A DNA stretch of 39,016 bases from positions 1-39,016 of the IMG/VR virus record IMGVR_UViG_3300018405_000776; one strand, 5' to 3'. Below the pieces are notes generated by a model. That model ran no database searches. It was not told where the DNA came from and saw only the letters and a list, made by a program, of their open reading frames with translations. This document shows positions 120 through 33,300 of this stretch, piece after piece. The translations under genes were made by a program, and so were the position numbers. Each line of letters begins with the position of its first letter. Position 1 is the stretch's first letter. The stretch comes from a virus.

Positions 120-1999
120 GCTCACCTGACCTGAATCTAAAAAATGAAGATGTGCTGCGGACATTGGCGGACTTACCTCGCCGAAGTGTGACGGCGCATT
201 TCAGTAGTCATGCAGTGATACGCCTGAACGACGGGACAAAGGTTCGCGGCCCGAAGCCGAACATTTTGCAGACTCGGCTCTTTGACTACTACGAGAAGTG
301 CCAGCGGGAAAACCGAGGTTGCATGGCGATCATTCTAAAGCCTCGCCGGAAGGGTGCGAGTACGTGCAGTCAGGACGTAATTTACTGCCACAATCAGCGT
401 CATCCCGGAACGAACGGGACGATCATGGCGGACAAGGACGGGACGAGTGACGAAATCTTTGAGATTTACCGGACAATCGCGGAGGAGGATCAGTTCGACT
501 GGCACCCCGATAAGGACTATCCGCCCTTGGCTTCCCGTTCAAAGCCTGGGAATACGGACACGGACATCAAATTGCCCTGTGGATCGACTTACGGCAAGGA
601 GACTGCGGGCAGCAGTAACGCGGGACGTGGCGGGACTCGTCAGGCGTTGAACCTGACTGAGTGTGCGCACTACACGGGCAAGGAGAAAGACCCGACATTG
701 GCGTTGCTGCCGAGTTGCGAAGTGGCGCAAGATCAGACGACAAATCGCGGGGTGATCATCGCAGACTCGACGCCGAATGGGCCGAAAGGATGGTTCTATG
801 ACACCTGTAAGGCGGCGGCGAACGGCCAGGGTGACTGGCATTTTATCTTTGCGGCGTGGTATGAGTTTGAGAACTCGAAGCGTCCCTTCCGCGATGATGC
901 GGAGCGCGAGGCGTTTGAGGCATCGATCGACCTACCTGAGAACGCGTGGTATGAGGAGCGCCGTGAGCTTCGACTTTACGGCGGTGGGGAGCATAACTAC
1001 GAGACGATCACCTTGGAGCATTTGCACTGGCGTCGGAACACGATCAACAACGTGTGCGGCAACAGTGTAAGGAAGTTCCGCCAGGAGTATCCGAGCGATT
1101 GGGAGGAGTGCTTTCAGGCGAGTGCGGAGAAGCGTTTCAACGAGTTCCATACGAAGCGCTGTCGTGACGCAATGCCGTCGAACTTACCTCAGCGCGTCAC
1201 GATGAACTATGACCGCGAGGCGAAACAAGTCTCAGTCTTTCCGGATCCTCGTGGGGAAGTCTTGATTTACGAGCAGCCCCGGATGGGATGCCGGTATTTG
1301 GCGAGTGGCGACTTTTCGACGGGGAAGGATCAGCAAATCGGCGGCGGCGACAGCGACCCCGACTATCACTCGCTCAAGATTTGGCGTGATGCGTATTTGG
1401 ACAGGTCGACCGGTCGTTGGATGAACAAGAAGATGGTGGCCTGTCACCGAAGTCGCCTTGAAGTCGATTTGGCGGCAGCAGTGCTGGCGGCGATGAGTCA
1501 GTATTACGGTCGATGCTTTGTGGTGCCCGAGGTGAACAACTGCGGGCAGGCTCCGACCAACCTCCTTGTCGAGATGGGCTTTTCGGTTTACCAGCGGACA
1601 AAGCGGGACGAGACGACGCAGCAAGTCAATCAAGCGTACGGGTGGAAGACGGATGCGATCACGCGGAAGACGATCATCGACCACTTTGCGAAAGAGTGGC
1701 GCGAGGGCTTGCTGGACACATTCGACGAGACGGACTTGTCGGAGATCGACACCTTCGTGACAGACAAGAACGGGCACCCTGCGGCCTTGGCAGGGAAGCA
1801 CGACGACACCGTCCTGTCCAACTGTATCAACGTCTATAACCTTCCGAGTCTCGGAACCACTTATCGCGGTGCGGTGCGCAAGAGTTTTGCCCTGGATCAA
1901 ATGGGCGCTCGCCCGAGCCTCATGTCTCCGGACGGGTATTTTCGCGGCGGTCTGGACGAGAAGCGCCGCCGTGGTCGCAGTCGTCGCCGGAACCGATAA
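116..1999 (+). CDS. terL: Phage terminase large subunit (packaging ATPase-nuclease)
   Basis: This is the DNA-packaging motor subunit that docks on the portal, pumps DNA with its ATPase and cuts it with an RNase H-like nuclease. An N-terminal ATPase shows a degenerate Walker A, KPRRKGAST, at about residues 75-83. The Walker B-like LTECA follows, with Glu at about 182, then the coupling segment IIADSTPNG. The C-terminal nuclease has three acidic sites in order: Asp about 399 in ASGDFSTG, Glu about 472 in VPEVNN, and Asp563/564 in GKHDDTV. The length of 627 residues is normal for large terminases. The start overlaps the stop of the preceding partial gene (ATGA), and I see no Shine-Dalgarno. The identity is secure; the packaging type (headful or cohesive ends) cannot be told from the motifs. 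Confidence 0.93.
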   Translation: MSSPDLNLKNEDVLRTLADLPRRSVTAHFSSHAVIRLNDGTKVRGPKPNILQTRLFDYYEKCQRENRGCMAIILKPRRKGASTCSQDVIYCHNQRHPGTNGTIMADKDGTSDEIFEIYRTIAEEDQFDWHPDKDYPPLASRSKPGNTDTDIKLPCGSTYGKETAGSSNAGRGGTRQALNLTECAHYTGKEKDPTLALLPSCEVAQDQTTNRGVIIADSTPNGPKGWFYDTCKAAANGQGDWHFIFAAWYEFENSKRPFRDDAEREAFEASIDLPENAWYEERRELRLYGGGEHNYETITLEHLHWRRNTINNVCGNSVRKFRQEYPSDWEECFQASAEKRFNEFHTKRCRDAMPSNLPQRVTMNYDREAKQVSVFPDPRGEVLIYEQPRMGCRYLASGDFSTGKDQQIGGGDSDPDYHSLKIWRDAYLDRSTGRWMNKKMVACHRSRLEVDLAAAVLAAMSQYYGRCFVVPEVNNCGQAPTNLLVEMGFSVYQRTKRDETTQQVNQAYGWKTDAITRKTIIDHFAKEWREGLLDTFDETDLSEIDTFVTDKNGHPAALAGKHDDTVLSNCINVYNLPSLGTTYRGAVRKSFALDQMGARPSLMSPDGYFRGGLDEKRRRGRSRRRNR

Positions 2000-2026
2000 T
2001 AAATGCAACCTATGGACAACCGGTAG
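1998..2026 (+). promoter_or_regulatory. Conserved 20-bp intergenic element, copy 1, with mini-ORF MQPMDNR
   Basis: AATAAATGCAACCTATGGAC at 1998-2017 is a near-identical copy of an element found before three other structural genes. The ATG at 2003 opens a 7-codon frame (MQPMDNR) that stops at TAG 2024-2026. The next gene starts 31 nt after the end of the element, with AGGTG between them. It could be a late promoter or a leader peptide. No -35 box is apparent upstream. Confidence 0.6.
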
Positions 2027-2048
2027 CTATAGGTGAATAACGCATACC

Positions 2049-2975
2049 ATGGCAACCTACCAGGAACAGTCACGACTTCGCAATATCCGGGCAGGCGGGA
2101 GTTGGAACCACCTAGATCATACCTTCTCTCGCTCAGATAATGCATCAGTTAGGAAGACGGCAACACGGCGGCTTTACGACGCCGACAGTGCTGCGCGCGA
2201 GAAGCGCCTTGAAGCGAACGACCGCCGTCCTGGCGAAAGTGCGACCTCTCGTGATACGCGCATGGCAGCATCACGCACAAAGCCGAGCCACTTCGTTCCC
2301 TTCAGCGTGCGTGAGGCCGGTTGGCGCAGTGAAGGCTACCGCGGCAAAGACGCGAAGCGCATGGCGCAGTTTCAGTCGAGCACGGCGGGTCAGAGTCTTG
2401 GGATGGGTGGCACGATGGACAACCCCGGCCCTTTTGGATCGAATACAGGACACGACACTCAGACGCCGAAAGCCGACCCGCTGGTCACGCCGAAAGTCGG
2501 CGGCAACGAATCGCCTGACGGCGGCATTACCCGCGAGCGCGGCGGCATGTTTTCAGGACTCATGGACAAGGTCAAAGGAGCTATCTCGTCGAGACTCCCT
2601 CAACCCGGAAGTCCTCAGGGCAACTTCTTAATGCGCGGGCAGGACGCGACCCCTGAGCAGATCACGCAAGCTCACGAGTACGCCGCCTCGATCGGCACGA
2701 CCTTCGACCCGAAGACCGGCTACAATCGGAAGCCTTTTATGCAGTCTCAGTCCGGGGCATCTCCCGACCTGCCGCCCCCGTCCACCTCCGGAAAGACCTA
2801 TACGGACGCGGGCAACCCGGCATCCGCAAATCTACCCTCACCCTCTGCGCAGAGCAATGCCGCACTGGTCGGCGAGGCGGATGCGTCAAAGTTGCCAACC
2901 CCTCGTCGGCAAAAGGATAAAGTCCAAAAGCGCGCAACAGATTTACCTTTCAAGTCTCCTGACCTAAATTTCTAA
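2049..2975 (+). CDS. Hypothetical protein, Pro/Ser/Gly-rich, between terminase and the giant polyvalent protein
   Basis: I do not recognise this 308-residue protein. The N-terminal third is charged and rich in Arg, Asp and Ala. The rest is low-complexity, Pro/Ser/Gly/Lys-rich, with stretches such as LPPPSTSGK, and ends in a basic tail. No membrane segment or catalytic motif is visible. Its stop TAA overlaps the ATG of the giant gene by one base (TAATG at 2973-2977), so the two are probably co-translated. The disordered composition and position fit a minor virion or ejection accessory protein, but that is inference. AGGTG about 12 nt before the ATG is a possible ribosome binding site, and the conserved element copy 1 lies just upstream. 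Confidence 0.75.
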   Translation: MATYQEQSRLRNIRAGGSWNHLDHTFSRSDNASVRKTATRRLYDADSAAREKRLEANDRRPGESATSRDTRMAASRTKPSHFVPFSVREAGWRSEGYRGKDAKRMAQFQSSTAGQSLGMGGTMDNPGPFGSNTGHDTQTPKADPLVTPKVGGNESPDGGITRERGGMFSGLMDKVKGAISSRLPQPGSPQGNFLMRGQDATPEQITQAHEYAASIGTTFDPKTGYNRKPFMQSQSGASPDLPPPSTSGKTYTDAGNPASANLPSPSAQSNAALVGEADASKLPTPRRQKDKVQKRATDLPFKSPDLNF

Positions 2976-5900
2976 TGAACCCCTTCGGTTACGACCCATT
3001 CAACAGCAAGCCCGACAAGAACCAGATCAAGGCAGAGAAAGACGCCTTCAAGTCTGAGGAGTCCAAGCGGGAAAATCTATACAAGTCCGCCGGGATCGAT
3101 TACGACAAGGATCGTGACGGACGCGTGTTTGCCAAAGACTCCGAGGCCAATCGCCGCATCGGACTGAGCGCACCTGTCATCGGAGAGGATGGCCGCGTCG
3201 ATTTGGACAGTCGCCGGGAAGTGGACGGTATCATTCAGTCGATTCCTCAGACCGGCGAGAAGATTAAGGCCGCAAAGGAGCGCCGGTCCGCGCTCTCGGA
3301 GATTGCCAAAGGGCACCGAGCCTCGCTTGACGCGTTTGATTCGCAGTGGGGCGCAAAGAAGGTGAAGCGCGAAGTGTGGCAGGATGACTTGGGCGACGGT
3401 ATTGGCGGCTACAAGGATGTCGAAGACATCGAATTTGAAGGCATCGACGACGAAGACCGCCGCGACGCTTTGATGCAGACGCGCAAGGCGATGTTGGAAG
3501 AAGCCGATCGCACAGAGCGCAGTATTGGCGAAATCGACATCGAAATCGGCCAGTATCACGAAGCCCGCCAGAAGTGGATTGAGCAGCAACGCTCCCGCTT
3601 GGGCGCGAAACCGGGCGACATTCCTGAACTCGACGAGCAACGCGACCCGGACGTTGAAATCGGCTCTCCCGAGTGGTATCAGCGCATCGAAGCCCACGGC
3701 GGCGTAGTGGGCGGCGGCAAGAAGCCACCGCTTCCGAGTCCCCTCGAATTGGCAAACGGCCAAATCGTCGGCAAGAACGACCCGATTCCGCAGGGCGACC
3801 CCGCATTTCACCGTACGGTCGAAGGGCAGGGCGACGGCGTCACAGCCAAAGTCACCGACGAGTTCCAGATTTCGCAGGCCGACGTGGATGCCGCACAAGC
3901 GGAGCAGCTCGGCTACACCGTCAACCCCGACGGCACGATGACGCGCTCGACGAAGGTTTCGCCGACGGAGGTCGAGACTGAGCAGGAAAAGCCAAAGTTC
4001 CTGATGGGCGAGCGCGTCGAGTCTATGCGTGAAGCAGGGGCGCGACCGCTTGAAGTTGCCAATGTGCTTTCCGAAAATGCAAAAGCGCTTCGCAAGCACT
4101 TGAAGCGCGACCTTTCCCCGGAGCAACGTGCATTCACGGAGTCGCAGTTCGAGCAGAACGCGGAGTATCTGGCTTCGTTCATCGATCAACTCAGCGAGAA
4201 AGAGCGCAAAGACTTAGACCCAGGGGTAGTTGATCGAGCGTTGGATCTGTTTCAGTCGGGAGCTTCAGCCGCTTCCTCTTACGGATATTCTGGGATCGCT
4301 GGACTTGCTCGCGCTGCCGACATCGGATCGCAGTGGCTTGATAACACTTTCTTTGGCGATAGCTACGAGCAGGGCGAAGGCATGTTCCCTCAGATTGCCC
4401 AACTGGCACAGAGCCTTTCTCGTGACTCCGAGTCTTTTGGTGTTGGTGAAGTTGCTCAAGGTCGCATGGAGAATCAGATTTCCGGCGTGCTCTTAGGTCA
4501 ACTTCCGTCACAAATGGCGCTTACCTTCGTTTCTGGCCCGTCCAGCACTTTTTCGGGTGCGTCAAAATTGATGCGCGGGATTAACTCAGTCGCAAATAAA
4601 GCACAAGTCGGGCTGGCTTCCATGTGGGGAGCGATGTTCGACGAGAACATCTCCGAGGCAGAACAGACGATGATGAAGTCGTTCGACCAGATGACCCCGG
4701 AGGAGCGAAACAAAGCGGCGAAGTCCGCAATTGTCGGTGCGACTGCCCAAACCGCATTGGAGCGGGCTGGTATCGGAATCGTTCTCGGTCAAAAGATTTT
4801 CAAGGGCAGCAAGCAACTCAGCACGGACAAATTCCTCGAAGGCTTTCTCGGCAAAGGCACCTTCGGGGCGTTCACCAAAAGTTTCCTTGGGGAAGGTTTC
4901 ACTGAAACCGGCCAGGAGGCATTGAAGGATGCCGTCGCCAAGTTCTTTTACGACGCTGACCGTGATTTGTGGGACGAAGAATCGGTCATGGATCGGCTGA
5001 AAGTCTTCTTCATCGGCGGCGTCGCGGGCGGCGCGGCGGGCGGAGCTCGCAGTGCATTTCAGCAAATCATGGGCGAGCAAGCCGCGCAACTTCCGGAGGA
5101 TCAACAAAAGGAAATGGCTGCTGCGATTGAGGAGTCTTACTTTTACAAGAAGGCCAGACAGCAAGTTGCTCAGGAACTCGGGCCCGTTGAGTTCAGCGAA
5201 TTGACTCCCGAGCAACAAGCAGAGTTGGTCGAGGCCAAGCGCGAAGAGATGGGCGTAAGCGACGAAGAACTCGCCAGGGTTCGCGCTGCGACCGAGGAAC
5301 TTTTCAACACAAAGCCTGAGCCAGAGTCCGGGTTGAAAGTCTTCACTGTGACGAAAAACATCCCGGACGTGGGGGAGCGCAAGCAAAAGGTATTTGCCAA
5401 GTCTTTTGAGGAAGCTATGGAGATGGTTCAGGGCGAGGATGGCGTCGGCGACTTCTCGATTGAGTCCGAACCCGAAGTCTTGACCGAGATGGTACCGACC
5501 TTCGTCTTCACATCGAAGTCCGGCGAGGAAGTTACCATCGAATCAGAGAACCCCGTCGAAGCTCGCAAGCAGTTGCCCGAAGGTTTCGAGATTGCGGCCA
5601 TGCGTAGCGGCGAAGCTGTTGAACGTCCCGTCAAAGTGGACATTGAACCCCAAAGCGCAGATGAATCCTCCGATAATACTGATACGACTCGCACCGCCGC
5701 CACCGAACAGTCCGTTCCTGTTCCTCCTGCCGAAAAGCCTGACGATGGGTCAGGCGAACCTACTGTCGACAGTGATACTGGAGCAGGGCCCGCACCTGAA
5801 CTAAGCACTGTCCAAGTTGATCTTGGTAGTCTCTCTGACTCTGAGGTGCAAAACGTCAAGAAGCAGCTTCGCCAAAAGCTTGTGAACGCTAGAGAGGCAG

Positions 5901-8900
5901 AGAAAGCAGGGAGGCCAGTCGTCGGAGGAACAGGCTCAATTGAGTCTGACTACAATGCGGTTTCGGATTATCTTGAGTCTCGAAAGCAAACTTCAGAATC
6001 TACCCAAGACACCCCCAAAGCCCGCAACCCCGATGCCGCTGGACTTCCAACAGATGCACCTGCTACTGAACGCAGTGGGGGGGCAGAACCCGAGGCTGAA
6101 CTAATTAAAAAAATCAAATCTGCAAAATCACGAGAGGAACTCGTAAATGCTCAAGGCGAACTTGTTAAAAGTTTAAGTGATGGAGACCGGGTTGACGATA
6201 AGACAACGGGAAGCTCATTGGTTTTAAAGTCTCGCAAGAAATCAAAAAATACTGGGCTTGAAACGATTACCCTAGATTTGGTTGGTGAGATTGACGGAGA
6301 AAGTGATGTTTTTCTTGATGCTGTTTTGTATCAAGAGCAGAAGGATGGGAGTTGGAAGTTTTTGGGAAGTCCTGACGGAGTGCTTAATAATTCTAGCGAT
6401 TTTAGTGTTCGTCGAAAATCAAAAGACTCCAAGCAACCCGAGCCGTCCGCCCCCAAAGCCCGCAAGCTCACCGAGATCAAAGACGCGTTCAAACTCTCCG
6501 AGCGTGGGCGCGAGGCCGTTGACCTGATCGGTGATGCTATTGAGCGTGTGGTCGGCCCCGACGCCTTTGAGAAGGTGAAGATCGACATCGTGCCCGCCTC
6601 CGAGATGCCCGAGGGCTTTGCCGACCGGGGCGGCGTGTGGGATCGCAAGACCAGTCGCCTTTTGCTTAACCGCGACGCTGTCGACAATCAAGGCGACGGG
6701 GCGATACTGTCCGTATTTCACGAGTCCGGCCATGTGATCGCCGAGGCGATGGACGACTTTATCCGCGACCAATGGGCAAGCCTGACCCCAGAGCAGCGCG
6801 AAGCCGCCAAGCTGGAGTATAACCCGGACGATACCCGAACCGACGCGCAACTCCTAGCCTCAAAGAACGCCCGCCAAGAGTGGTTCAACTTCCAGCTTTT
6901 CCGCGTCGCCCGTGAAGGCGTCGAGACTTTCCAGAAAGACGAAAGTCTGCCCAAGCCGTTCAAGGACAAAGTGGTCGAGGCGTGGAACGAGATTCGCAAG
7001 ATCATTACCAAGTGGATCGGCGACGAAAGCCTGTCCACCGAGGCGCTTGACACGCGAATCCGCGAGATACTTTTCGGCGAGGCGGTATCAAATGATACCA
7101 GCGCCACAACACAACGGGACGCGGGGCGGTCCCCGCAGGGTGAAGGGGTAACACCCGAGGGCGAATCAACGTCCGTCCCGACCAATTTGACCAGAGACTC
7201 GCTCATGCAGCGTGTTACATCGACCGGAGCCATTGCCACCGAGCAAGACATTTCCGTTTCTGAAATCGTAGTCAACAAAGACATTCCTCAGTTCAAAGAG
7301 GATGCTGACCCTGTTACCGGCGTAGTCGAGGGGCAGCAACTTCAAGGCAAATACGATGTTGTCAAAGGAGGCAGAATCGTAGTTTGGGAAAAAGAAAATG
7401 GCGAAAAAGAAGTCATTACTGGTCGCCACCGACTAGACCTTGCCAAGCGAACGAACACTGCGAAAATCCCAGCATTTGTCTTTAAGGAGTCTGACGGCTT
7501 CACTGTCCAAGATGCGATGGTTCTTGACGCAGAGTTCAATATCGCTGATGGTCAGGGAAAGGTAAAAGACTATGCCCACTACTTCAAGACAGTCGGAGAA
7601 GGAATCAGCCGCGAAGAAGCAACGCAGAGAGGCTTACTCTCGCGTTTGGAAGGAAGGCAAGGGTGGTCGCTTGGGCGCGAAAGTGTCCAAGGCTTGTTTG
7701 ACCTCTACGCCAATAACCAAATAGCCGAACCAAAAGCCGCCGCCATTGCCGCCGCCGCGCCAGGGAATGAAGCCGCGCAGATGCTTGCCGCAAAACAGGC
7801 TATGGCAAATCGATCATTGAGTGCCGAGCAACTGCGTTTTCGCACGCAGCAGATTGCTCGTATGGGTGGTATCGAAGGGAAGTCAAGCGACCAGATGGGG
7901 CTTGGCGATTTGATGGGGAGTGATGATTTTCAACGCATCGAAGCCGAAGCCGCCAAGGTTGGTGACGCTCAAGCTGAAATGTCGAATGAGATCAAGGAGC
8001 GCATCCGTGCCGGTAACAACGCTGCCCGCAATCCATCCGCAGCGAAAAAGATGGGGATCGATGTGAAGAACCCCGAGGCGACTCAAAAGCAAATCGAAGA
8101 CCTTCGCGAAGAACTCGCCCAGCTCGAAGACCCAGACTCTGAGACGATGAACCGCATCCGCGAGCGGGCCGGACTCCCGCCGCTTAAAGGCGAAGTTGAA
8201 GCGGAGGCGGAAACGCAACCGGAAGACCCGAACCAAGGCGGACTCTTTGGCGACGACACCTTCAATCTTTCCGGCCAAGTTCAAGGCGAAACCGAGGCCG
8301 ACTTGCAAGCCGAGCGCAACCGCCGCGAAGCCGAGTCGAACCAGGAGCAGATGTTTGGCACGGATGAGGTGAGAGGGGTTAAGCCCAAGCCCGCCCCGAA
8401 AAAGAAACTCTCCGCCGCCGAGCAAAAGGCGAAAGACGATCTCGCCGATGTCTTTAGCGACTTGGAGGACTTGGCCGGGACGCCGCCGGAGCGCCCAAAA
8501 AGGAAATTACCAAAACGTCCAGACATTGATAAGCCATTTGAAGCGGCACGCAAGGCGAGGGAAAATGGTCAGGATGAAAAGGCTGCTTGGGATCAGGCTA
8601 TGGCTCGATATGACGCAGCAGAAAAGCGCTATAAAGAGCGACTTGCGAAGTGGGTTGAAGATGCTCCGCGTGTTTTTGGTTGGTCCTGGAAAGCAGACAG
8701 CTTTCGAGGCGAATTTGATCGTGCCTTAGTAGTAAGCCCAGACCCGAAAGGGGGATGGCGCTATACAAACTTTGACCGTGGCTTTCTTGATCCAAAAGAC
8801 GAATGGATTCCTAGCGGTCACTATGAGCACAAAACGAAGCTGGCCGCAGTCGAAGATGCAATTCAAGAGTATATCCGACCTAACGCAGAGCTGTTGGATG

Positions 8901-11900
8901 GTCTGGCCTTCTCCCCGCCGGATCGACAATTCTCAAAAGTCATCCCCGCCGCCAAGTTCCCGGCACTCGCCAAAGCGGCACAGTCGTTTGTCGAGGCCGA
9001 ACTCAACACCCCCGAGAAGTTCGCGGCATTCATCGAGGAGCAGTTCGGCGGGAAGCTCCGCCCTTACTCGCAGTCGATCTGGAACTTCATCATGTCCGCC
9101 GACGAGACCGCAGCGCAGACCCCGCAGCCGGATTGGTCGGGCGTCTATTCTGGACTTGCCAATCAGAGCGAAACAAAAATTAGCGACGGAAAAGGGCGTT
9201 CTACGATCCAAAGATCAAAACCAAAAAGCCGACTTGTTTTTTCAAATCCGATTGTAGGCCCATCCGGGAGTCGTCTGCTTGCTTACGAATGGCAGTTTCA
9301 ATTGGAAGAAGATGTCGATAATCTAGGCGAAGAAGTTGTTCGTCGTGTGTCTGACTGGAGCAAAGCTGAAGCTTCCGATGCAACCGGTCGAGAAATTGTT
9401 CATCAATTTGTCGTTCAGGATAATGCCGGAAACGAGAAGATTGTTAGTGCTGAGTCGGCATTGCAAGAACTGGGCTTTCTCAAGCGCAGTGAAGGAACTG
9501 CTACAAAATCCAAAATGAACCAAGTTAAGAACTTGGCAAAACTTCAAATGGAACTCGCCGAAGTTGAACAGCGCGAGTCGTTTAATCAAAATATTCGGGA
9601 TGAATTAAATCCTGTCGTCGATGCGATGGAGGTTCCTGAGGTTCAGATTTCCGACGACGGAAAGATAACTGTTGGAGATGTCGTTCAGCCTGGATTTGTT
9701 TTAAAAGGAAACGGGGTCGAATACGCTACAAATCTGGCTGTTAATCGTTGGAAATCTAATCGCTTTAATGAACAACTATCCGAGCGTGGCCTTGAGTTTC
9801 TGCCAGAAAGTCCGGTAGCAAAAGCCAACTTGATCGAAAAAATCAAGAAGCTCAAAGACAAGCTTGGCATTGATGAGGTCGCTTTGACTGAAACCGACCA
9901 GGAATCCACCCAAGAGCCTCAACCCGCTGAGAAGGTAGAACCATCGCCTGAACCTGAGATCGCCGCGCAGGCGCAGGAATCGCCGCAGGAATCCACCGAA
10001 TCACCGCAAGTCGCCGAGGAGGCTGCGCCGGAAACGCCCACCGATGGCAGACTGACTAAGGCCAATGTCACACAGACCGCCGTGCTACCCGACGGTTCAC
10101 TTGGCTTTATCACCTCAGTCAAGGGAGATACTGTCACCGTCCTGTCTGACGGTATCACCAAGCGCATCAATCAGGCGGAGACGCCGATTAAACTTACTGA
10201 TTCTTCAAAACGCCGTCGATCTGTCTCAGGTGCTGTCGCATTGGCCGCTGGTGGCCAGACATCGATTGATGACTTTGTGCCAGACCCTGATGAGCACTCC
10301 GCCGAAGAAATCAAACTTTTCGAGAAGTCGAAGGAACTGATCAAAAAGCATGGTGGGCAAAGACGGATCATGGAAGGACGCAATCCGAAGGGGACTCTAG
10401 GAGTTTCCTACAACCATACGGGAAACATCGCCATTGCAGCGCTCAACAATATCGGAGTAGCCGCCCACGAGACAGCGCACAACGTGGATCGTGACACTGG
10501 CTTAACGCTAAAGACGATGCGTAAAGTTGGGACGACTAAAAATGGAAATCCCAAATACGACCCCGCTACGCTGCCAGAGCGACGGGAGTTGACAAAAGTT
10601 TACACCGAATACTACCCCGGCGGCAAGAAAACCGATTCTTTGCATACGCGCATGATCGAGGGCTATGCTACCTTCGTTCAGAAATTTGTCGAAGATCCGA
10701 AGACTATGCGCGCGCGATTCCCTGAGTTGACCAAGATGCTGACTCATCGCGACGGAAAGTATTTTAGCGAACGAACGGCGGCTTTGATTAAAGACGCTCG
10801 CGAAATCGTCAACGCATACAGCAAGCTAGACCCTTTGCAGAAGATTGGATCACGGATTACAAACAGCCAGACCAAGAAACAGAGGAAGTGGCTAAGCACC
10901 CGCGACAAGGTCGAGACTTTCATGTTTGACCGAATTTGGCCTGTTGAAAAGGTCGCAGAAATTAACGGCGTGCAGATGACGGAAAATGACCCGTCCGTCT
11001 ATCTGCGTGAGTATGAGCGCACGAACCGAGTCTTTTCTCACAACATCCAAGAGAATTTTTTTGGAGGGGAGTCTTTCCTCGCATGGCGAGACAACGAGTA
11101 TCGCGAAATACATGACTTTAATTGGTCAACCTTGCTCAAATCGCTAAAGGACGGCAAAGCAGAAGATCACTTTGATCAATATTTGGTCGCTCGCCGTACG
11201 CAGGCAGACTATCGCAAGCTGGACGGGATCAAAGAGGAGATTGATTCAGTGACTGCCGAAATTGATGCGATCGAGGAGGGCGAGACTGTCCCGCGTGAAT
11301 TGACCGAACGACTTAGCGAGCTCAATGGAAATTTCCGAAAGCTGAGCGGCATTCTCGAAAACAATAAGATTTCGCGCGATCTTGCCGACCAATCCGTAGA
11401 TCAGGCTAAAAGCACGCTACCGGAAATTGCCCGATACGAGCAAATGTTCGACACTTTGGTTCGCGCCGATTTGGACAGCCTGAAAGAGTCTGGTATTATC
11501 TCCGAAGAAGACCATGCCAGGTATGCCAACGAGGATGGATATGCCACCTTTAAGCGGGATGTTTACGACGACTTGATCAACCCGGAGACGGGCAGGGCGA
11601 GTTCTTCCAACGTGACCAGTAAGTCGGTCAGCGTTCTAAAACGCCGGACAGGTTCGGAAAAGGCCATCATTTCCCCTCTCTACAGTTCAATCGCCAATCA
11701 CAACGAAATCCTGCATAAGTCGATGCGTCAGGTTATCTGGAATAAGCTGGCTGACTTGGTGGACATGAATCCTGAGTTGATGGGAGACATCATGCAGCGC
11801 GAAAAGCTGGAGGTTTCGTTTAGCCCGGAAACAGGAACAGCCTTTTACCCACAGGACAGCGACAACAACGTGCTTATGGCTCGGCGAAACGGAAAGCGTG

Positions 11901-13681
11901 TGCCTTACGCTATCGACTCGGATTTGAAGTCTGTTCTCGACACGATACTTACGCCAGAAGCTTTCGGTGTGTTGTCGCGCATTCTGGTTGCTCCGACCCG
12001 TGCTTTCACCAAGGGCACGACAGCTCTCTACCCTGGATTCGCCGCGATGAATCTTGTCGTCGACCAAATTACGGCGACCGCTCAATCAAGGACTGGCTAT
12101 GTTCCTGTTGTCAGCCAAATCAAGCAGCTCGGGAAAGCATTGGGAAGCGACTCTTCGCCAGAGTCTCAATTCATTCGAGAGTATATGAACTTGGCCGGGG
12201 CAACCCAGACCATGACTGGCTGGAACGAACTCCCTCCCGACAAAGCCAAGCGGATGATTGCCAAGGAAGTCGGGGCGCTCAAAAAATTGAGGAAGGGGTT
12301 AGAAATGGGCGGAACCATAGCGGGCTTGCCGTCGCAGTCTTCTGAAATCTTCACGCGAGCCAGCGAGTACATGAACGCCCGTTTGGCCGGCGATAATCAA
12401 CTCGTGGCGCTTGAGAAGGCCGGTCGAGTCTCGGCGCCGTTTCACCATGTCGGATCCTGGGGGCTTGGCGTGGGTTCTTCGCAACTTGGTCGCACTTGGG
12501 TGCGCACGCTTCCGTATTTCAACGCTGCTCTGCAAGTGAATAAGGAATACGCGAAAGCCATGACGACAAAGGGGCGCAAGTCCCGGGCGATGGCAGTCAC
12601 GGCAATACTTCTGTCTGCAAAGGTCGCCGAGTTAATTCCCATGATGTTGCTCGCTTCCGATGACCAGCGGGAAAAATACAAGGATGTGGAGCCGGATTAC
12701 TTTGCCCGCTATATCTTCCTTCCCCATTGGAATGGAAAAGACCTGCTGCGATTCCGCGTTCCTGAGCAAATGACGATGCTTGCCTCACCAATCAACATGG
12801 CGCTTCAAAACGCCATGATGGATAACAATTTTGATAGGGGTGACATGAAGGATGCCGCGATGGCGTGGGTTCCGGATCAGTTCGACCCTTCTGAGCCAAC
12901 GAGGTTCTTTCTGTCATTCCTGCCCCACGTTTCTAAAGTGACCGCTGAGACTGCCATGAACAAACGAACATGGCCGAAAATTCGCGATCTTGAGCCGGAT
13001 TACATGACAAAAGGTCGAAACGCAAAGCTTCCGCAAAATCGCACGTTCAAGACTACATCTGCTGTCGCTAAAGAGTTGGGCGAGCTAACAGGACTTTCGC
13101 CAATCAAGATTGATCACTTCATGGAAGGGATGCTTGGACGGTCAATCAAGATGGTTACTAAAACGAATAGCGAATGGGAAAAGCAGATTAGGCCATTTGA
13201 GCAACGATACTATTTCACCGCCGCCAGAAACGTACGCGATTTCTACGAACAAAAGGAAAAGACCCAACAACTTTACAATTCTGTAAAGCAGCGCGAAGTC
13301 GAAGTTTCCCGCGAGCACGGCAAACAGATATTCAAAGACATGCAATTGGCAAAGCGTGTGGACGAGCTTCTCAAGCGTTATCGTGAACTCGACGAGGACG
13401 GACTTGAAGACTCCGAAGACGCGTATCGCTTAAGGAAAGACATCATCGAGAAGATCAACATGATGAGTCCAAACCCATTGACCAGTCCAGACGGGGAAAA
13501 GCCGCAGTCGATTAAGCGTGAACAGGCGACACCGCAAGCGTCCAAATTTTCGCCAACACCGGCACCGAAGGAACCAAATAAGCGATCCGTCGCCCAAAGC
13601 CGTCCGCGTTCGCCCTACATCCCTCAGATGCCGCCGCCAAGGCGCAGACCTTCGCTGCCAAGTCCTATGGCGACAGTGTAG
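2975..13681 (+). CDS. Giant polyvalent (DarB-like) phage protein with two zinc-peptidase motifs, ParB-like motif and LPD38-like region
   Basis: This 3568-residue multidomain protein is of the polyvalent type that phages and conjugative elements inject with their DNA. Domains in order: a charged helical N-terminus; a glycine-rich hydrophobic stretch at about 677-690 (FFIGGVAGGAAGG); acidic linkers; zinc-peptidase motif HESGH at 1249-1253; a ParB-like segment with GRHR at 1483-1486; Lys/Glu-rich linkers; a second zinc-peptidase HETAH at 2498-2502 with a likely third ligand Glu at about 2562 in EGYATF; a long helical region; an LPD38-like segment around 3000-3230 (ALYPGF near 3016 and a hydrophobic helix at 3205-3228); and a proline-rich basic tail. 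Family knowledge suggests entry with the DNA and action on host proteins or DNA in the new cell. The reading frame is intact over 10.7 kb. Several internal blocks are visibly richer in A+T, which suggests stepwise domain gain. Individual domain names are by eye. Confidence 0.85.
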   Translation: MNPFGYDPFNSKPDKNQIKAEKDAFKSEESKRENLYKSAGIDYDKDRDGRVFAKDSEANRRIGLSAPVIGEDGRVDLDSRREVDGIIQSIPQTGEKIKAAKERRSALSEIAKGHRASLDAFDSQWGAKKVKREVWQDDLGDGIGGYKDVEDIEFEGIDDEDRRDALMQTRKAMLEEADRTERSIGEIDIEIGQYHEARQKWIEQQRSRLGAKPGDIPELDEQRDPDVEIGSPEWYQRIEAHGGVVGGGKKPPLPSPLELANGQIVGKNDPIPQGDPAFHRTVEGQGDGVTAKVTDEFQISQADVDAAQAEQLGYTVNPDGTMTRSTKVSPTEVETEQEKPKFLMGERVESMREAGARPLEVANVLSENAKALRKHLKRDLSPEQRAFTESQFEQNAEYLASFIDQLSEKERKDLDPGVVDRALDLFQSGASAASSYGYSGIAGLARAADIGSQWLDNTFFGDSYEQGEGMFPQIAQLAQSLSRDSESFGVGEVAQGRMENQISGVLLGQLPSQMALTFVSGPSSTFSGASKLMRGINSVANKAQVGLASMWGAMFDENISEAEQTMMKSFDQMTPEERNKAAKSAIVGATAQTALERAGIGIVLGQKIFKGSKQLSTDKFLEGFLGKGTFGAFTKSFLGEGFTETGQEALKDAVAKFFYDADRDLWDEESVMDRLKVFFIGGVAGGAAGGARSAFQQIMGEQAAQLPEDQQKEMAAAIEESYFYKKARQQVAQELGPVEFSELTPEQQAELVEAKREEMGVSDEELARVRAATEELFNTKPEPESGLKVFTVTKNIPDVGERKQKVFAKSFEEAMEMVQGEDGVGDFSIESEPEVLTEMVPTFVFTSKSGEEVTIESENPVEARKQLPEGFEIAAMRSGEAVERPVKVDIEPQSADESSDNTDTTRTAATEQSVPVPPAEKPDDGSGEPTVDSDTGAGPAPELSTVQVDLGSLSDSEVQNVKKQLRQKLVNAREAEKAGRPVVGGTGSIESDYNAVSDYLESRKQTSESTQDTPKARNPDAAGLPTDAPATERSGGAEPEAELIKKIKSAKSREELVNAQGELVKSLSDGDRVDDKTTGSSLVLKSRKKSKNTGLETITLDLVGEIDGESDVFLDAVLYQEQKDGSWKFLGSPDGVLNNSSDFSVRRKSKDSKQPEPSAPKARKLTEIKDAFKLSERGREAVDLIGDAIERVVGPDAFEKVKIDIVPASEMPEGFADRGGVWDRKTSRLLLNRDAVDNQGDGAILSVFHESGHVIAEAMDDFIRDQWASLTPEQREAAKLEYNPDDTRTDAQLLASKNARQEWFNFQLFRVAREGVETFQKDESLPKPFKDKVVEAWNEIRKIITKWIGDESLSTEALDTRIREILFGEAVSNDTSATTQRDAGRSPQGEGVTPEGESTSVPTNLTRDSLMQRVTSTGAIATEQDISVSEIVVNKDIPQFKEDADPVTGVVEGQQLQGKYDVVKGGRIVVWEKENGEKEVITGRHRLDLAKRTNTAKIPAFVFKESDGFTVQDAMVLDAEFNIADGQGKVKDYAHYFKTVGEGISREEATQRGLLSRLEGRQGWSLGRESVQGLFDLYANNQIAEPKAAAIAAAAPGNEAAQMLAAKQAMANRSLSAEQLRFRTQQIARMGGIEGKSSDQMGLGDLMGSDDFQRIEAEAAKVGDAQAEMSNEIKERIRAGNNAARNPSAAKKMGIDVKNPEATQKQIEDLREELAQLEDPDSETMNRIRERAGLPPLKGEVEAEAETQPEDPNQGGLFGDDTFNLSGQVQGETEADLQAERNRREAESNQEQMFGTDEVRGVKPKPAPKKKLSAAEQKAKDDLADVFSDLEDLAGTPPERPKRKLPKRPDIDKPFEAARKARENGQDEKAAWDQAMARYDAAEKRYKERLAKWVEDAPRVFGWSWKADSFRGEFDRALVVSPDPKGGWRYTNFDRGFLDPKDEWIPSGHYEHKTKLAAVEDAIQEYIRPNAELLDGLAFSPPDRQFSKVIPAAKFPALAKAAQSFVEAELNTPEKFAAFIEEQFGGKLRPYSQSIWNFIMSADETAAQTPQPDWSGVYSGLANQSETKISDGKGRSTIQRSKPKSRLVFSNPIVGPSGSRLLAYEWQFQLEEDVDNLGEEVVRRVSDWSKAEASDATGREIVHQFVVQDNAGNEKIVSAESALQELGFLKRSEGTATKSKMNQVKNLAKLQMELAEVEQRESFNQNIRDELNPVVDAMEVPEVQISDDGKITVGDVVQPGFVLKGNGVEYATNLAVNRWKSNRFNEQLSERGLEFLPESPVAKANLIEKIKKLKDKLGIDEVALTETDQESTQEPQPAEKVEPSPEPEIAAQAQESPQESTESPQVAEEAAPETPTDGRLTKANVTQTAVLPDGSLGFITSVKGDTVTVLSDGITKRINQAETPIKLTDSSKRRRSVSGAVALAAGGQTSIDDFVPDPDEHSAEEIKLFEKSKELIKKHGGQRRIMEGRNPKGTLGVSYNHTGNIAIAALNNIGVAAHETAHNVDRDTGLTLKTMRKVGTTKNGNPKYDPATLPERRELTKVYTEYYPGGKKTDSLHTRMIEGYATFVQKFVEDPKTMRARFPELTKMLTHRDGKYFSERTAALIKDAREIVNAYSKLDPLQKIGSRITNSQTKKQRKWLSTRDKVETFMFDRIWPVEKVAEINGVQMTENDPSVYLREYERTNRVFSHNIQENFFGGESFLAWRDNEYREIHDFNWSTLLKSLKDGKAEDHFDQYLVARRTQADYRKLDGIKEEIDSVTAEIDAIEEGETVPRELTERLSELNGNFRKLSGILENNKISRDLADQSVDQAKSTLPEIARYEQMFDTLVRADLDSLKESGIISEEDHARYANEDGYATFKRDVYDDLINPETGRASSSNVTSKSVSVLKRRTGSEKAIISPLYSSIANHNEILHKSMRQVIWNKLADLVDMNPELMGDIMQREKLEVSFSPETGTAFYPQDSDNNVLMARRNGKRVPYAIDSDLKSVLDTILTPEAFGVLSRILVAPTRAFTKGTTALYPGFAAMNLVVDQITATAQSRTGYVPVVSQIKQLGKALGSDSSPESQFIREYMNLAGATQTMTGWNELPPDKAKRMIAKEVGALKKLRKGLEMGGTIAGLPSQSSEIFTRASEYMNARLAGDNQLVALEKAGRVSAPFHHVGSWGLGVGSSQLGRTWVRTLPYFNAALQVNKEYAKAMTTKGRKSRAMAVTAILLSAKVAELIPMMLLASDDQREKYKDVEPDYFARYIFLPHWNGKDLLRFRVPEQMTMLASPINMALQNAMMDNNFDRGDMKDAAMAWVPDQFDPSEPTRFFLSFLPHVSKVTAETAMNKRTWPKIRDLEPDYMTKGRNAKLPQNRTFKTTSAVAKELGELTGLSPIKIDHFMEGMLGRSIKMVTKTNSEWEKQIRPFEQRYYFTAARNVRDFYEQKEKTQQLYNSVKQREVEVSREHGKQIFKDMQLAKRVDELLKRYRELDEDGLEDSEDAYRLRKDIIEKINMMSPNPLTSPDGEKPQSIKREQATPQASKFSPTPAPKEPNKRSVAQSRPRSPYIPQMPPPRRRPSLPSPMATV

Positions 13682-16657: not shown

Positions 16658-16689
16658 ATAAAATGCAACCTATGGACGCGGGGGCATAA
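16658..16689 (+). promoter_or_regulatory. Conserved 20-bp intergenic element, copy 2, with mini-ORF MQPMDAGA
   Basis: ATAAAATGCAACCTATGGAC lies at 16658-16677. ATG 16663 opens an 8-codon frame (MQPMDAGA) ending at TAA 16687-16689. The portal ATG is 40 nt after the element, with GGAG about 12 nt before it. This copy and copy 3 are identical over all 20 bases although their flanks differ. Confidence 0.6.
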
Positions 16690-16717
16690 ATCGTCCTATT
16701 TCTGGAGTCACGAACCG

Positions 16718-22559: not shown

Positions 22560-22610
22560 GGCTCCGGAAGACCTCCGTCATCATTCATCCGCCATCCGCC
22601 ATCAATCCCC

Positions 22611-22961
22611 ATGTCCGAAGACAAAGACACCGCCCCCTCGCACAGCAACCCGCCGCAAAGCTGGCCGAAAGTCATCGGCGCAGCCATCGCCGCTGCCAGC
22701 CTCGTCGCCTCCGTCGCGTGGGGCTTGATCGAAGTGCGCGGCAACGATGTGTGGGCACCCAAAGAAACCACCGCCGAGCACATCGAAGAACTCCAAGAAT
22801 ACATCAAGCGCACGCCCGACGACTACGTAAAGCGCACCGAATGGCTCTCCGGTCAAGCCGCCGACGCCAAGGGCATCGAGAAGTTCCAGGACGAGCAACG
22901 CCAATTCTGGAGCGAGCAACGCGCCGTCAACCGCGAAATCCTCAACCGCCTACCTCGCTAA
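22611..22961 (+). CDS. Single-pass membrane protein with coiled-coil tail, candidate inner-membrane spanin or holin
   Basis: A 116-residue protein. A short polar N-terminus is followed by one membrane helix at about 24-43 (VIGAAIAAASLVASVAWGL). A charged helical tail of about 70 residues follows, with heptad-like spacing (AEHIEELQEYIK; KFQDEQRQFWSEQRAVNREI). This is the layout of an inner-membrane spanin, which joins an outer-membrane lipoprotein to fuse the two membranes at the end of lysis. The next gene encodes a small proline-rich lipoprotein, which fits the partner. A single-helix holin is the alternative. The spacer before it is pyrimidine-rich and lacks a Shine-Dalgarno. Confidence 0.6.
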   Translation: MSEDKDTAPSHSNPPQSWPKVIGAAIAAASLVASVAWGLIEVRGNDVWAPKETTAEHIEELQEYIKRTPDDYVKRTEWLSGQAADAKGIEKFQDEQRQFWSEQRAVNREILNRLPR

Positions 22962-25906: not shown

Positions 25907-25941
25907 ATAAAATGCAACCTATGGACAGCAAGGCACTTTAG
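25907..25941 (+). promoter_or_regulatory. Conserved 20-bp intergenic element, copy 3, with mini-ORF MQPMDSKAL
   Basis: ATAAAATGCAACCTATGGAC lies at 25907-25926. ATG 25912 opens a 9-codon frame ending at TAG 25939-25941. The scaffold start is 32 nt after the element and has no Shine-Dalgarno. The element follows directly after the terminator-like hairpin, as expected for a promoter of the capsid unit. Confidence 0.6.
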
Positions 25942-25958
25942 ACGCTCAAATTGCGTCG

Positions 25959-27125
25959 ATGAGTGAAAACCCTACACCCAGCGACGCAGAGGTGAAAAAC
26001 CCTGACGCCGCACCCGAGCAACCCGCAGCCGAACCCGTAAAGTTCGACCGTTCTCAAATGTCTGCCGAAGATCGCATGGCGATCCTCCAAGGTAAAGGAG
26101 CGGAAGTCTATGCGGCACAGCAGCAGAAAGCCGCCGAGGCCAAGCCAGGTGAAGAACCGGCCGAGCCGAAGCCCGAAGATAGCGAACCGGCAAAAAAGCA
26201 GGACGAGCCAAAACCCGAATCCGACCCGAAGCCCGAGGATGCAAAGCCCGAGCCAAAGAAGGACGAAGAGGAGGAGGACGACGAACCTGTCAAAATGCCG
26301 AAGCTCCGCATAACCCCGAAAGACGCCAAGCAACTCCAGTTCTTCTCTCTGATCAAAGAGGGCAAGTCGGAGCAGGAAGCGTTCAAGGAAGTGTACGGAG
26401 CACCGAAGCCCGAACCTGAAAAGCCGAAGCCCGAGCCGAAAGAGGAGGTGAAGAACCCCTTTGAGGAAATCGATGCTTCGATTGAGACCGCCAACAGCGA
26501 ACTCGAAGACCTGGAGCAGCGTTTGACCGATGCTCAGGAGGCCGAGGATGTGAAGGAGTCTTCCGACCTGACTCGCCAAATCGTGAAGAAGGAACTGGAA
26601 ATCGAAGGTCTCAAGAAAGATCGCGACGGCATCGAGCAGTCCCAAGTGGATGAGCAGATGAACGCGTTCGATACCAAGGTTCAGGAAAGCGCCGACAAGG
26701 TGTATGCGAAGTTCCCCGATCTGGCCGACGAGAAGTCCGACGCCCGCAAGGAGTTCCTCGAATACTACGCCGCGAAGGCCAAAGACCCGGACTACGAAGC
26801 TGTCTTCAAAAGCGCAAAGTGGCCCGAAATCATGGCTCGCGAGTTTGCTGACGAAAAGGGACTCACTCCGGCAGGTGCAAAACCGCCGGAATCGCCGACG
26901 CCTCCCGACGAACCGAAAAAGGAAGCGACCCCGCCGAAACCGGCAGCGGAAAAGAAGCCCGAGGCTCCCAAGCCAAAAGCGTCCGCATCCAAAGTCCTCA
27001 CCAGTGGCGACGACTCTCAAGCCGCTTCGATCCAAAAGTCTCGTGAGACCTATCAAAAGGATAGGAAAAACATGACACTGGAGGAGAAGAAAGCCCTTTT
27101 GGGAAAAGTCCCGGTCAACGTCTAA
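25959..27125 (+). CDS. Scaffolding protein
   Basis: A 388-residue, strongly charged protein rich in Glu, Lys, Pro and Ala. The N-terminal 120 residues are PEP/KPE-type low complexity with an acidic block (EEEEDDE). The middle has a long coiled coil (IETANSELEDLEQRLTDAQE). The C-terminal part is Pro/Lys-rich with a basic end (SRETYQKDRKNMTLEEKK) of the type that binds capsid protein. Composition, size and position directly before the major capsid gene identify a scaffold that guides procapsid assembly and is then lost. It may also carry maturation functions, but no protease motif is visible. Confidence 0.8.
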   Translation: MSENPTPSDAEVKNPDAAPEQPAAEPVKFDRSQMSAEDRMAILQGKGAEVYAAQQQKAAEAKPGEEPAEPKPEDSEPAKKQDEPKPESDPKPEDAKPEPKKDEEEEDDEPVKMPKLRITPKDAKQLQFFSLIKEGKSEQEAFKEVYGAPKPEPEKPKPEPKEEVKNPFEEIDASIETANSELEDLEQRLTDAQEAEDVKESSDLTRQIVKKELEIEGLKKDRDGIEQSQVDEQMNAFDTKVQESADKVYAKFPDLADEKSDARKEFLEYYAAKAKDPDYEAVFKSAKWPEIMAREFADEKGLTPAGAKPPESPTPPDEPKKEATPPKPAAEKKPEAPKPKASASKVLTSGDDSQAASIQKSRETYQKDRKNMTLEEKKALLGKVPVNV

Positions 27126-27184: not shown

Positions 27185-28645
27185 ATGCCACAAGAAGCTT
27201 TAGAGCAACAGGCCACGCAGTATGCTGACCTGATTGCAAACGATCCTACCTTCGAGCGCGAAGTGTGGGAAGACGTCGTTGTCGAAGAACACGGCAAACA
27301 TGACGTGTTCAATCAATTCACCGGTGCCGAAGGCAGCGGTATGCCCATCGTCAAAAAGTCGGAGAACCCGACTCTCACCTCGGGTAAAGCCCGTACCGTC
27401 CACTTCACCAACGTTGGCCGTATCGGCGGTCAGGGTGTGCTCGACGAGAACCAACTCACCGGCAAAGAACAGAAGCTCCGCTTCCAGACTTACTCGCTCA
27501 CTATGGGCTTGCTTCGTCACTCGGTCGGCTGGACTCAGGTTCTCTCTCTGTTCCGCCTCGGAATGGGCACGCCTTCGTCCATCTCTGCTGGCCTTATGGC
27601 CGAATGGTATGGCCGCAAGGTCGCCGACGACAAGATGGTCGCTCTGCGTGACGACGCCCTCAAGTCTTCCTCCGATAACCTCTATGTGGTCGGCGGATAC
27701 GACGATTGGGACGATCTGACCAGTGCGGACACTATCAATACCGGCGAAATCGAGAACTCCAAGGGACTCCTGCAAGGTCAGGGCTTCAGGGCGATCTCGA
27801 TCGAAACGGGGCAGATGGGTGCCGAAACGCCTCAAGCGCTGTTCTTCGGTGCCGACGAGGGTCTTCGCTCGCTCAAGAGCCAGACTACTTACCTCGCCGC
27901 CGTGAAGGAAGCCCGCGAGCGTTCCGCCAAGAACCCTCAGTTCTCCGGTCAATACGTCACTTGGGACGGGAATATCATCTTCCCTCACAATGTTGTCGAA
28001 AGCACCGCAGACGGTCGCCTCGGCACGCCGCTGCGCCCGATGGCTCGCCTCGGCACAGCCATTGCAGACGAGACTACACTCATCCTGACAGGTCGCGCAC
28101 CCGATGGTGAAGTCTCCGCTTCGGACTGCTTCGCCAACTTCCCCGGCTATCCCTGGAAGTTCTACGATGACCAGACTCTGCCGACAGACAATCGCACCTA
28201 CTACGCGATCATCTGGAACCCGACCGACAAGAAGTATGAGGGCGTGTCCTACACCGCCGCTGGCTTCTCTGCCGATGGTTCTACGCTGACCGTCACTCGT
28301 CAGGTTGCCTCCGTCATCGCCACAGCCGATGCCAAATACAGCAACGCGCACCCTGCCGGAGCTTTGATCATCCCTTGCACATCCAACGGTGTGCCGGTGA
28401 CGTTCTTCCTCCATATGGGCCAAATGGCGCTTTGCCAAGGCACGGGCGCAGTCGAACTGGAGCAAATCAGCCGCAAGGACGACTACGAGAACAAGAGCGG
28501 TCGCGCTCACTTGGAGGCCATCGGTCTGCAAGCTGTTCGCGGATTCTCGCCTTACCAGGATGTTCGCGGGCGCCGTCCCAACTACATGCTGGTCGCTGCC
28601 GCGCTCAACCTGCCACAGCTTAATCTCAACGATTACAACGGCTAA
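27185..28645 (+). CDS. Major capsid protein (N4 gp56 / Sf6 gp66 type)
   Basis: 486 residues. The sequence has the features of the N4-gp56-like capsid family: an N-terminal arm (EALEQQATQYADLIANDPTF), VGRIGGQGVLDENQLTGKEQ, LRFQTYSLTMGLLRHSVGW, the central FFGADEGLRSL, and the end RGFSPYQDVRGRRPNYMLVA. It has the HK97-type fold by family knowledge. It forms the capsid shell around the scaffold. The 59-nt leader lacks a Shine-Dalgarno and the gene is followed by a strong terminator, as fits a highly expressed late gene. Confidence 0.88.
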   Translation: MPQEALEQQATQYADLIANDPTFEREVWEDVVVEEHGKHDVFNQFTGAEGSGMPIVKKSENPTLTSGKARTVHFTNVGRIGGQGVLDENQLTGKEQKLRFQTYSLTMGLLRHSVGWTQVLSLFRLGMGTPSSISAGLMAEWYGRKVADDKMVALRDDALKSSSDNLYVVGGYDDWDDLTSADTINTGEIENSKGLLQGQGFRAISIETGQMGAETPQALFFGADEGLRSLKSQTTYLAAVKEARERSAKNPQFSGQYVTWDGNIIFPHNVVESTADGRLGTPLRPMARLGTAIADETTLILTGRAPDGEVSASDCFANFPGYPWKFYDDQTLPTDNRTYYAIIWNPTDKKYEGVSYTAAGFSADGSTLTVTRQVASVIATADAKYSNAHPAGALIIPCTSNGVPVTFFLHMGQMALCQGTGAVELEQISRKDDYENKSGRAHLEAIGLQAVRGFSPYQDVRGRRPNYMLVAAALNLPQLNLNDYNG

Positions 28646-31676: not shown

Positions 31677-32188
31677 GCACAGGCGAGATCGCCCCGGTCG
31701 GCGGCGAGGAGTTCTACTCGTCGGCACGCGATTTCCCACAGACGGGCATCACACAGACCGGCGAGCTTCTCCCCGCCGAAGAGCCGCTGCCTGGGGACAC
31801 TGTGAGCAAGGGCGGCGGGGGCGGTGGCGGAACCCACATGCTCATCTACCGAGCCGGTCAGACCACACCGGATTTAGTCACGATCTCTGACATCATGGAC
31901 GGTTACGACCCGGAGACGCACGACAACTGGTTCGCCGAATTCAAGGTGGAGAATGGGCGGCTCAAAGATCCGATCGGAGTCGGCGACGAGCCCGTCGGCA
32001 CATCGAGCACAGAGATTTACGACGGCGACGCGAACGCCGATCCAATCGTAGATCAAACCTATTTCCGTGTCCCGACTATTATCACAATCAGCGGGAAAAA
32101 ATACACCTTCGACATATCGGGAGTTTATCGAGAAAACGTGGTCTGCACACCAGACGGGCCGCAAGCAGAATTGATACGGAGAGCCTAA
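31661..32188 (+). CDS. Hypothetical virion protein with glycine hinge
   Basis: 175 residues. After 50 polar residues comes a run of seven Gly, then a beta-rich part (THMLIYRAGQTTPDLV; PTIITISGKKYTFDISG). I do not recognise it. The start overlaps the previous gene by 16 nt and the stop shares a base with the next start (TAATG). It is probably a minor tail protein. Confidence 0.6.
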   Translation: MDGSIGTGEIAPVGGEEFYSSARDFPQTGITQTGELLPAEEPLPGDTVSKGGGGGGGTHMLIYRAGQTTPDLVTISDIMDGYDPETHDNWFAEFKVENGRLKDPIGVGDEPVGTSSTEIYDGDANADPIVDQTYFRVPTIITISGKKYTFDISGVYRENVVCTPDGPQAELIRRA

Positions 32189-33249
32189 TGCCAGCACCAT
32201 CAATAGACGCATACCAACTCAGCACGACCGGAAGCGGATTCCCGTATTGCCCTCGCAAGGTTGACCTCACAGACCTTGAGGACGTTGACGGAAACACGAC
32301 CACCGCCGATTACTGGATCACCCTCGGAGGCACCCAGAAAGGAAACGCCCCGACCGCATCAGAGATTCACCTCTCGTGGCTCAACGCGATCAAGCTCACG
32401 TATGAGACCTACAGCGTCACGGGGACGGCTCGGTCAACGGAGTATGGGTTCGGGGAATTCCCCGTTGAAATAGATGAGGAAGAAGTCCGCATCGGCTTGG
32501 AAGAATACACCGCCCTTGTCTTTCCCGAGCTTGACCCAGAAGGTTCTCCGGACTCGACTGATTACGAAGACAACAAGCCCACGATGCTGCCGGACGAACG
32601 GGAATGCATGCGGATACTGGAGAGAAAAGACGGCGCGGGCACGCCGCATCAACTCAAATTCCGGCGCGATCCGGGATCAGGATTTCCGCGCTGGCAACGT
32701 GGATACGGGCGCAAAGCGAAAGCATACTTTTACGGAGCCGCATACATCTATTCCGCAGCGGTCATTGTGCAAGTCCCCGAGATTGTCCGCATGTATGATG
32801 GAGCCACAAGTGACGAAGGTAATTTCGTGGGATACGGAGTCGCCTCGTTCTTCAACGGCAACGCCAGTGAAGATACCGGGACTCCGAAATCTGTGCTCAG
32901 GGAGTTCGCCGATGACGCTTATAGGTTTGACGGGCTGGACGGCGACATGCGTCAAGCGGAGGAGGATGACGACGGTTTTTTCGGCTCATGGCTATGCAAC
33001 GGCCCGTTCCAGGCCGCCGGACGTGCCGACCAAGGGAGTTCTGAAATTGATGTTAAAAAGCACGTCTTCGTCTCGTGGATTACCGACGAGGATTATTTTC
33101 CTTTGGGTGTGTGGTCGAACACCACTCGCAGCATCACCTATTCCACCTTCGGAGGCATCCCATTCGTGGAGGTCAATTACGACAGCTATAACAACAATGA
33201 CTGGGCGGACGCCGAACTAACCGCGCTGACATTCTATACGCAGACCTAG
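32188..33249 (+). CDS. Hypothetical tail-region protein
   Basis: 353 residues, acidic, with aromatic and beta-type stretches (YWITLGGTQKGNAP, AKAYFYGAAYIYSAAVIVQV, WSNTTRSITYSTFGG). No motif is known to me. It is coupled to the previous gene by TAATG and followed by a hairpin and element copy 4. Its place before the nozzle suggests a tail component. Confidence 0.6.
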   Translation: MPAPSIDAYQLSTTGSGFPYCPRKVDLTDLEDVDGNTTTADYWITLGGTQKGNAPTASEIHLSWLNAIKLTYETYSVTGTARSTEYGFGEFPVEIDEEEVRIGLEEYTALVFPELDPEGSPDSTDYEDNKPTMLPDERECMRILERKDGAGTPHQLKFRRDPGSGFPRWQRGYGRKAKAYFYGAAYIYSAAVIVQVPEIVRMYDGATSDEGNFVGYGVASFFNGNASEDTGTPKSVLREFADDAYRFDGLDGDMRQAEEDDDGFFGSWLCNGPFQAAGRADQGSSEIDVKKHVFVSWITDEDYFPLGVWSNTTRSITYSTFGGIPFVEVNYDSYNNNDWADAELTALTFYTQT

Positions 33250-33279
33250 CCACCGAGGCCTGCCCGCTCGGCAAGTGGC
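33249..33279 (+). other. Stem-loop just after the stop codon
   Basis: GCCAC (33249-33253) pairs with GTGGC (33275-33279), with an inner CGAG/CTCG stem at 33254-33257 and 33267-33270. There is no T-run. It lies immediately before element copy 4, as the larger hairpin does before copy 3. Confidence 0.35.
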
Positions 33280-33286
33280 CGGATGC

Positions 33287-33300
33287 TTAAAATGCAACCT
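33287..33300 (+). promoter_or_regulatory. Conserved intergenic element, copy 4 (shortened)
   Basis: TTAAAATGCAACCT keeps the first 13-14 bases of the element but lacks TATGGAC. The ATG at 33292 opens a 21-codon frame starting MQPLS that runs over the nozzle start codon. The nozzle ATG is 38 nt after the conserved part. It is the weakest copy. Confidence 0.45.

Follow-up and report, generated by a model that had tools for sequence, protein, structure and literature searches.

What does a 20-bp element repeated before four late genes of an uncultured phage do? The window, by which we mean the whole stretch of DNA analysed, is an entire IMG/VR record, linear and 39,016 bases long. The exact sequence ATAAAATGCAACCTATGGAC lies at 16658–16677 and 25907–25926, and a copy with two mismatches lies at 1998–2017; a search of the window returns three matches, compared with none in 100 shuffled sequences. 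The core, AAATGCAACCT, occurs four times, on the + strand in every case and with the fourth occurrence at 33290–33300, while the same pattern read backwards has no occurrence in the window. The pattern search, with its two exact copies, one two-mismatch copy and one 11-base copy, bears out the repeat that an earlier note had placed before four late genes, and the downstream start codons (ATG at 2049, 16718, 25959 and 33339) agree with the 31–40 nt separation given there.

The four copies are set among terL (116–1999), the gene for a 3568-aa protein of the ‘large polyvalent protein’ type with an LPD38 domain close to the C-terminal end (2975–13681), and the genes for the portal (ATG at 16718), scaffold (25959–27125), major capsid protein (MCP; 27185–28645) and nozzle (ATG at 33339). 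The names scaffold and nozzle come from the earlier note, and neither protein has a match in PHROGs. An Rfam search of the window gave no match. A direct repeat of 226 nt lies between 21895 and 22413, with 98% identity and a spacing of 293; it straddles the end of an ORF and the ORF that follows, and further partial repeats are present upstream of it.

Comparison with other IMG/VR phages indicates that the element is not specific to the window phage and is common to a large family of uncultured phages, with CAACC as its core across about 200 loci. A search with the portal protein returned 12 related contigs. One of them, G001, has a portal 71% identical to that of the window and carries the element after terL (ATGCAACCTATGGAT, 46 nt to the next ATG) and before the portal (ATGCAACCTATCGAC, 50 nt to the ATG). 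Some portals that are about 41% identical are preceded by AATAATGCAACCTGTTG, 46 nt before the ATG, and in G003, G004, G005 and G006 the element takes the form TAATACAACCG(C/A)TT, 44–46 nt before several late genes. TerL and MCP alignments added up to 160 loci, mostly new, in which these proteins are about 32–44% identical to those of the window, with G001 as the exception (73%). Neither the portal nor the MCP has a match among 50,697 deposited phage records. The only hints of a host are two portal relatives in binned contigs, one assigned to Candidatus Didemnitutus (Verrucomicrobiota; JAUXXD010000203.1) and one to an uncultured archaeon (CALIKS010000014.1), which may be misbinned.

The placement of the element is syntenic: it precedes the gene after terL, the portal gene and the scaffold gene at near-constant spacing, in phages whose structural proteins are 32–73% identical. 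Before the scaffold gene, CAACC is present in nearly all of about 70 relatives, is changed to CAATC in one and is absent from three. The scaffold-gene element reads TAATACAACC in one branch and CCAACCGGTTAC in another, and in one branch the CAACC box is extended upstream to AATACAACC or AATGCAACC. In scaffold promoters of the second branch (loci L173–L233), the box and the hexamer next to it merge into AACCGGTT, a perfect 8-bp palindrome that could point to a dimeric binder. This occurrence before orthologous late genes, at near-constant spacing, gives strong support to the proposal that the element is a phage-specific late promoter. The sequence AAAATACAAC in L010, L011, L020 and L042 belongs to the in-frame coding end of the gene before the portal, about 90 nt upstream, and was discounted as a resemblance.

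The spacing between the box and the start codon hardly varies within the family. Within 205 loci (2.41 Mb), AT(A/G)CAACC lies 45–46 nt before an ORF starting with ATG in 28 cases, and control words give a flat distribution. With start codons taken as first-ATG calls, the distance from CAACCGG to the ORF is exactly 42 nt in 83 cases and 43 nt in six, every other offset being represented zero to two times. Numbering the A of the ATG as +1, the class has CAACC at −42 to −38, a TTGAAA-like −35 hexamer at −35 to −30 and a −10 hexamer at −12 to −7. The spacer between the hexamers is 17–18 bp, mostly 17. The −10 hexamers resemble TATATT, TATTTT or TATCTT, and at most sites they end 6–7 nt before the ATG. 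For the scoring of the two hexamers, sites were clustered to reduce relatedness. In the resulting 85 clusters, the −10 score peaks once, at −12 from the ATG, to a height that none of 3000 shuffles reaches. The −35 score likewise peaks once, immediately after the box on its downstream side; an earlier set of 25 clusters agrees. A good −10 at −12 is found at 52% of genes with the element, as against 6.6% of 727 other ORFs.

To check this without bias, all 2.9 million IMG/VR contigs were scanned with the pattern CAACCGGTTAC-N18..20-TAT-N9-ATG. A gap of 19 gave 57 matches and a gap of 20 gave four; a gap of 18 gave none. Of the gap-19 matches, 55 fall in the family, and every one of these precedes an ORF of 60 aa or more at an identical spacing; the remaining six matches of the scan lie outside the family before short ORFs. 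A separate scan of IMG/VR with an exact 17-mer had four matches outside the family, save for a weak TerL similarity in one of them (L004), and these were taken as chance.

The window copies follow this layout to different degrees. Copy 1 (AATAAATGCAACCTATGGACA, 1998–2018, + strand) has its CAACC box at 2006–2010 and a −35-like TGGACA at 2013–2018, followed after 17 bp by the predicted −10, AATAAC (2036–2041), with the ATG of the next gene 7 nt on, at 2049. Copy 3 (ATAAAATGCAACCTATGGACA, 25907–25927, + strand; box 25915–25919) is similar, with TGGACA at 25922–25927, an 18-bp spacer, a predicted −10 of TCAAAT (25946–25951) and again 7 nt to the ATG of the scaffold gene. In copy 2 (ATAAAATGCAACCTATGGACG, 16658–16678, + strand; box 16666–16670), TGGACG at 16673–16678 is separated by 18 bp from the predicted −10, TATTTC (16697–16702), and the predicted portal leader is about 9 nt, compared with about 3–4 nt in G001. 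Copy 4 (TTAAAATGCAACCT, 33288–33300, + strand; box 33295–33299) retains just the 5′ part of the element, is without a good −35 or −10, and is followed by an SD-like GAGG before the nozzle ATG. The hexamers of a sigma70-type promoter are present at canonical spacing in the family, weak in the window copies and not seen at copy 4. The view that no −35 box is conserved holds for the DNA upstream of the element; it does not hold for the 3′ end of the element itself, where TGGACA or TGGACG occupies the −35 position with a −10 17–18 bp downstream.

The box, its syntenic placement, its spacing and the two hexamers are established by the sequences. We consider it probable that they constitute late promoters of the sigma70 type that include a dedicated box for an activator, from which leaderless or near-leaderless late mRNAs would be made. 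The element would then be the upstream half of a late promoter that switches on the structural genes: a host RNA polymerase of the sigma70 type would start at the start codon or within a few nucleotides of it, the late mRNAs would thereby have no leader or almost none, and late specificity would come from a phage protein that binds the CAACC box beside the −35. The almost fixed distance from box to ATG suggests that the 5′ ends of the messages are at the start codon or next to it, since a 5′-terminal AUG would require a near-constant distance, for which promoters that produce an ordinary leader have no need. The absence of Shine-Dalgarno sequences is uninformative here because only 17% of the other ORFs have one. 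By sequence, the portal and nozzle copies match the leaderless model only partly.

The earlier note raised the possibility that an off-window polymerase or an unknown factor reads the element, and likened TATGGAC to the initiation part of promoters for single-subunit phage RNA polymerases such as that of T7. Such promoters are about 20 bp long, as the window repeat is, and relatives carry TAATACAAC, a sequence similar to the beginning of the T7 promoter, TAATACGAC. Against this, a search that finds T7 itself at E 1e-110 finds no T7-type polymerase domain (PF00940) in 18 family records, of which eleven exceed 50 kb, although the records may be incomplete. The 3568-aa protein yields LPD38 as its only Pfam domain above the cut-off and no RNA polymerase domain, and its only matches to DxDxD are DYDKD and DADRD. 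TATGGAC varies among relatives, transcription is predicted to start about 30 nt beyond it, and separate −35 and −10 signals follow the element, so that we regard a T7-like promoter as extremely improbable. A translational role is scarcely more plausible. The element might encode a leader peptide from ATG CAA CCT, or be an RNA site bound by a regulator at a fixed distance from the start codon; a reading frame beginning MQP is indeed present at all four window copies (MQPMDNR, MQPMDAGA and MQPMDSKAL), and the start codon follows at a nearly fixed distance. The micro-ORF was rejected, however: in most relatives its ATG is replaced by ATA or a different triplet, and therefore no peptide is encoded. 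An RNA element would also leave canonical −35 and −10 hexamers at canonical spacing unexplained.

A harder alternative to set aside keeps the same geometry and dispenses with the phage activator, the CAACC box being either a site for a transcription factor of the host or part of the sequence that an alternative sigma factor of the host recognises. The near-invariance of the box beside a variable −35 would fit such a factor, and the tie between a phage protein and the box is one that we infer. Judged by the normal spacing of −35 and −10 elements, however, the roughly 25 bp between CAACC and the −10 is too far for the box to be a −35 read by one sigma factor, and the box is kept even though the relatives are diverse. 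We think this reading unlikely, and favour sigma70-type promoters with a phage-encoded activator.

A small helix–turn–helix (HTH) protein would be the best candidate for an activator that binds the box. A Sigma70_r4 search first pointed to a family-conserved protein of about 100 aa, present in most records, whose homologue in the window is a 116-aa HTH protein with an AT-hook-like tail, GRGRPGKSKR (35312–35659, − strand). When the window protein is left out of the profile, the search still recovers the window copy (placed at 35312–35680, − strand) at E 5e-9 and the G004 copy at E 5e-21, and has no match in G001, whose contig lacks that region. With the window protein included, the profile finds the HTH protein in 28 of 46 records and in 12 of the 13 longer than 50 kb; the contigs that lack it are shorter or are missing that region, save for G045, the one exception among the long records. 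A search of 29 short contigs, almost all of them under 10 kb, gave no match; it was run without a positive control. PHROGs gives weak matches to D5-like transcriptional regulators, Q-like antiterminators, sigma factors and small terminases, and the last of these make a packaging role also possible. The AlphaFold2 model has a confident helical core with the HTH and uncertain ends; a fold search of the PDB with this model gave no match at E <= 0.001, the best ones being HTH domains.

Phages whose HTH protein has the GRP tail carry an AATA/AATG extension at the scaffold promoter, and those without the tail do not. The association is restricted to the scaffold promoter, the other promoters of the GRP-tail phages being without the AATA extension, and it may reflect just two lineages, a single split. 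For these reasons we term the HTH protein a candidate only. A second HTH protein family with strong Sigma70_r4 scores, mostly of 120–190 aa, is found in G005 (22587–22703, − strand), G006 (12202–12300 and 13249–13347, + strand), G007–G009, G011–G013, G015 and G016. These proteins of marine relatives score more strongly and are unlikely to be the general factor because they are absent from the window, G001 and G004.

Two further features may be mentioned. The reverse complement of 36033–36092 contains a 3′ fragment of a tRNA-Lys-like gene (ATTGACTCTTAATCAATTGGTTCGGGGTTCGAGTCCCCGATCCA). This fragment, which precedes the tyrosine integrase gene (36227–37510) by about 135 bases, is probably the attP core of a temperate phage. 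In G001 the integrase and terL are separated by about 26 kb of DNA that the window lacks. Upstream of terL, similar DNA in the window (1–115) and in G001 (L030, 7300–7460) contains two copies of CC(T/A)(A/G)CCCCCGCAA, a shared region that could be a packaging (cos/pac) site.

Through the element, late gene control can be approached from sequence alone in a large phage family for which the deposited records compared hold no close relative, and a spacing constant to about 1 nt across so many genes and relatives is an uncommon natural mark of leaderless expression. The fullest form of the proposal remains tentative, and we would sooner doubt it than assert it: leaderless structural-gene mRNAs made from a new promoter class under a small HTH activator not described before, which has weak similarity to sigma region 4 and would bind CAACC next to the −35. 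If the promoter model is confirmed, two questions become testable, namely how the ribosomes of these hosts cope with abundant leaderless structural mRNAs and whether an HTH protein of about 100 aa suffices for the late switch.

In the literature that we searched there was no description of the CAACC element or of these phages. The T7-type promoters share with it a repeated element of about 20 bp before late genes and, in some relatives, a TAATAC-like start; they differ from the present case, in which there is a two-hexamer sigma70 layout, no conserved initiation sequence and no polymerase found. In class II activator promoters, such as those of lambda CII, the activator site is at about −41, directly upstream of the −35, much as the box is here at −42 to −38, whereas a start codon at +1 is a feature of the present promoters and not of that class. 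Among the systems that we looked up, the nearest studied arrangement is that of the T4 middle promoters, which combine a MotA box with a sigma70 −10 and depend on sigma appropriation by AsiA and MotA (PMC7403470). Both have a phage-specific box in the −35 region with a host-type −10, and in both the redirection of the host polymerase would fall to a small DNA-binding protein of the phage, as proposed here; the MotA box replaces the −35, whereas the family studied here keeps a TTGAAA-like −35 with the box just upstream. Leaderless phage transcripts as such are already known, and phage transcripts are stated to be often leaderless (PMC5312081). The late mRNAs described here would resemble known leaderless mRNAs with a 5′-terminal AUG in that their start is predicted at the AUG, and would differ from them in that a whole set of late structural genes in a family, with their predicted starts, is tied to one promoter class.
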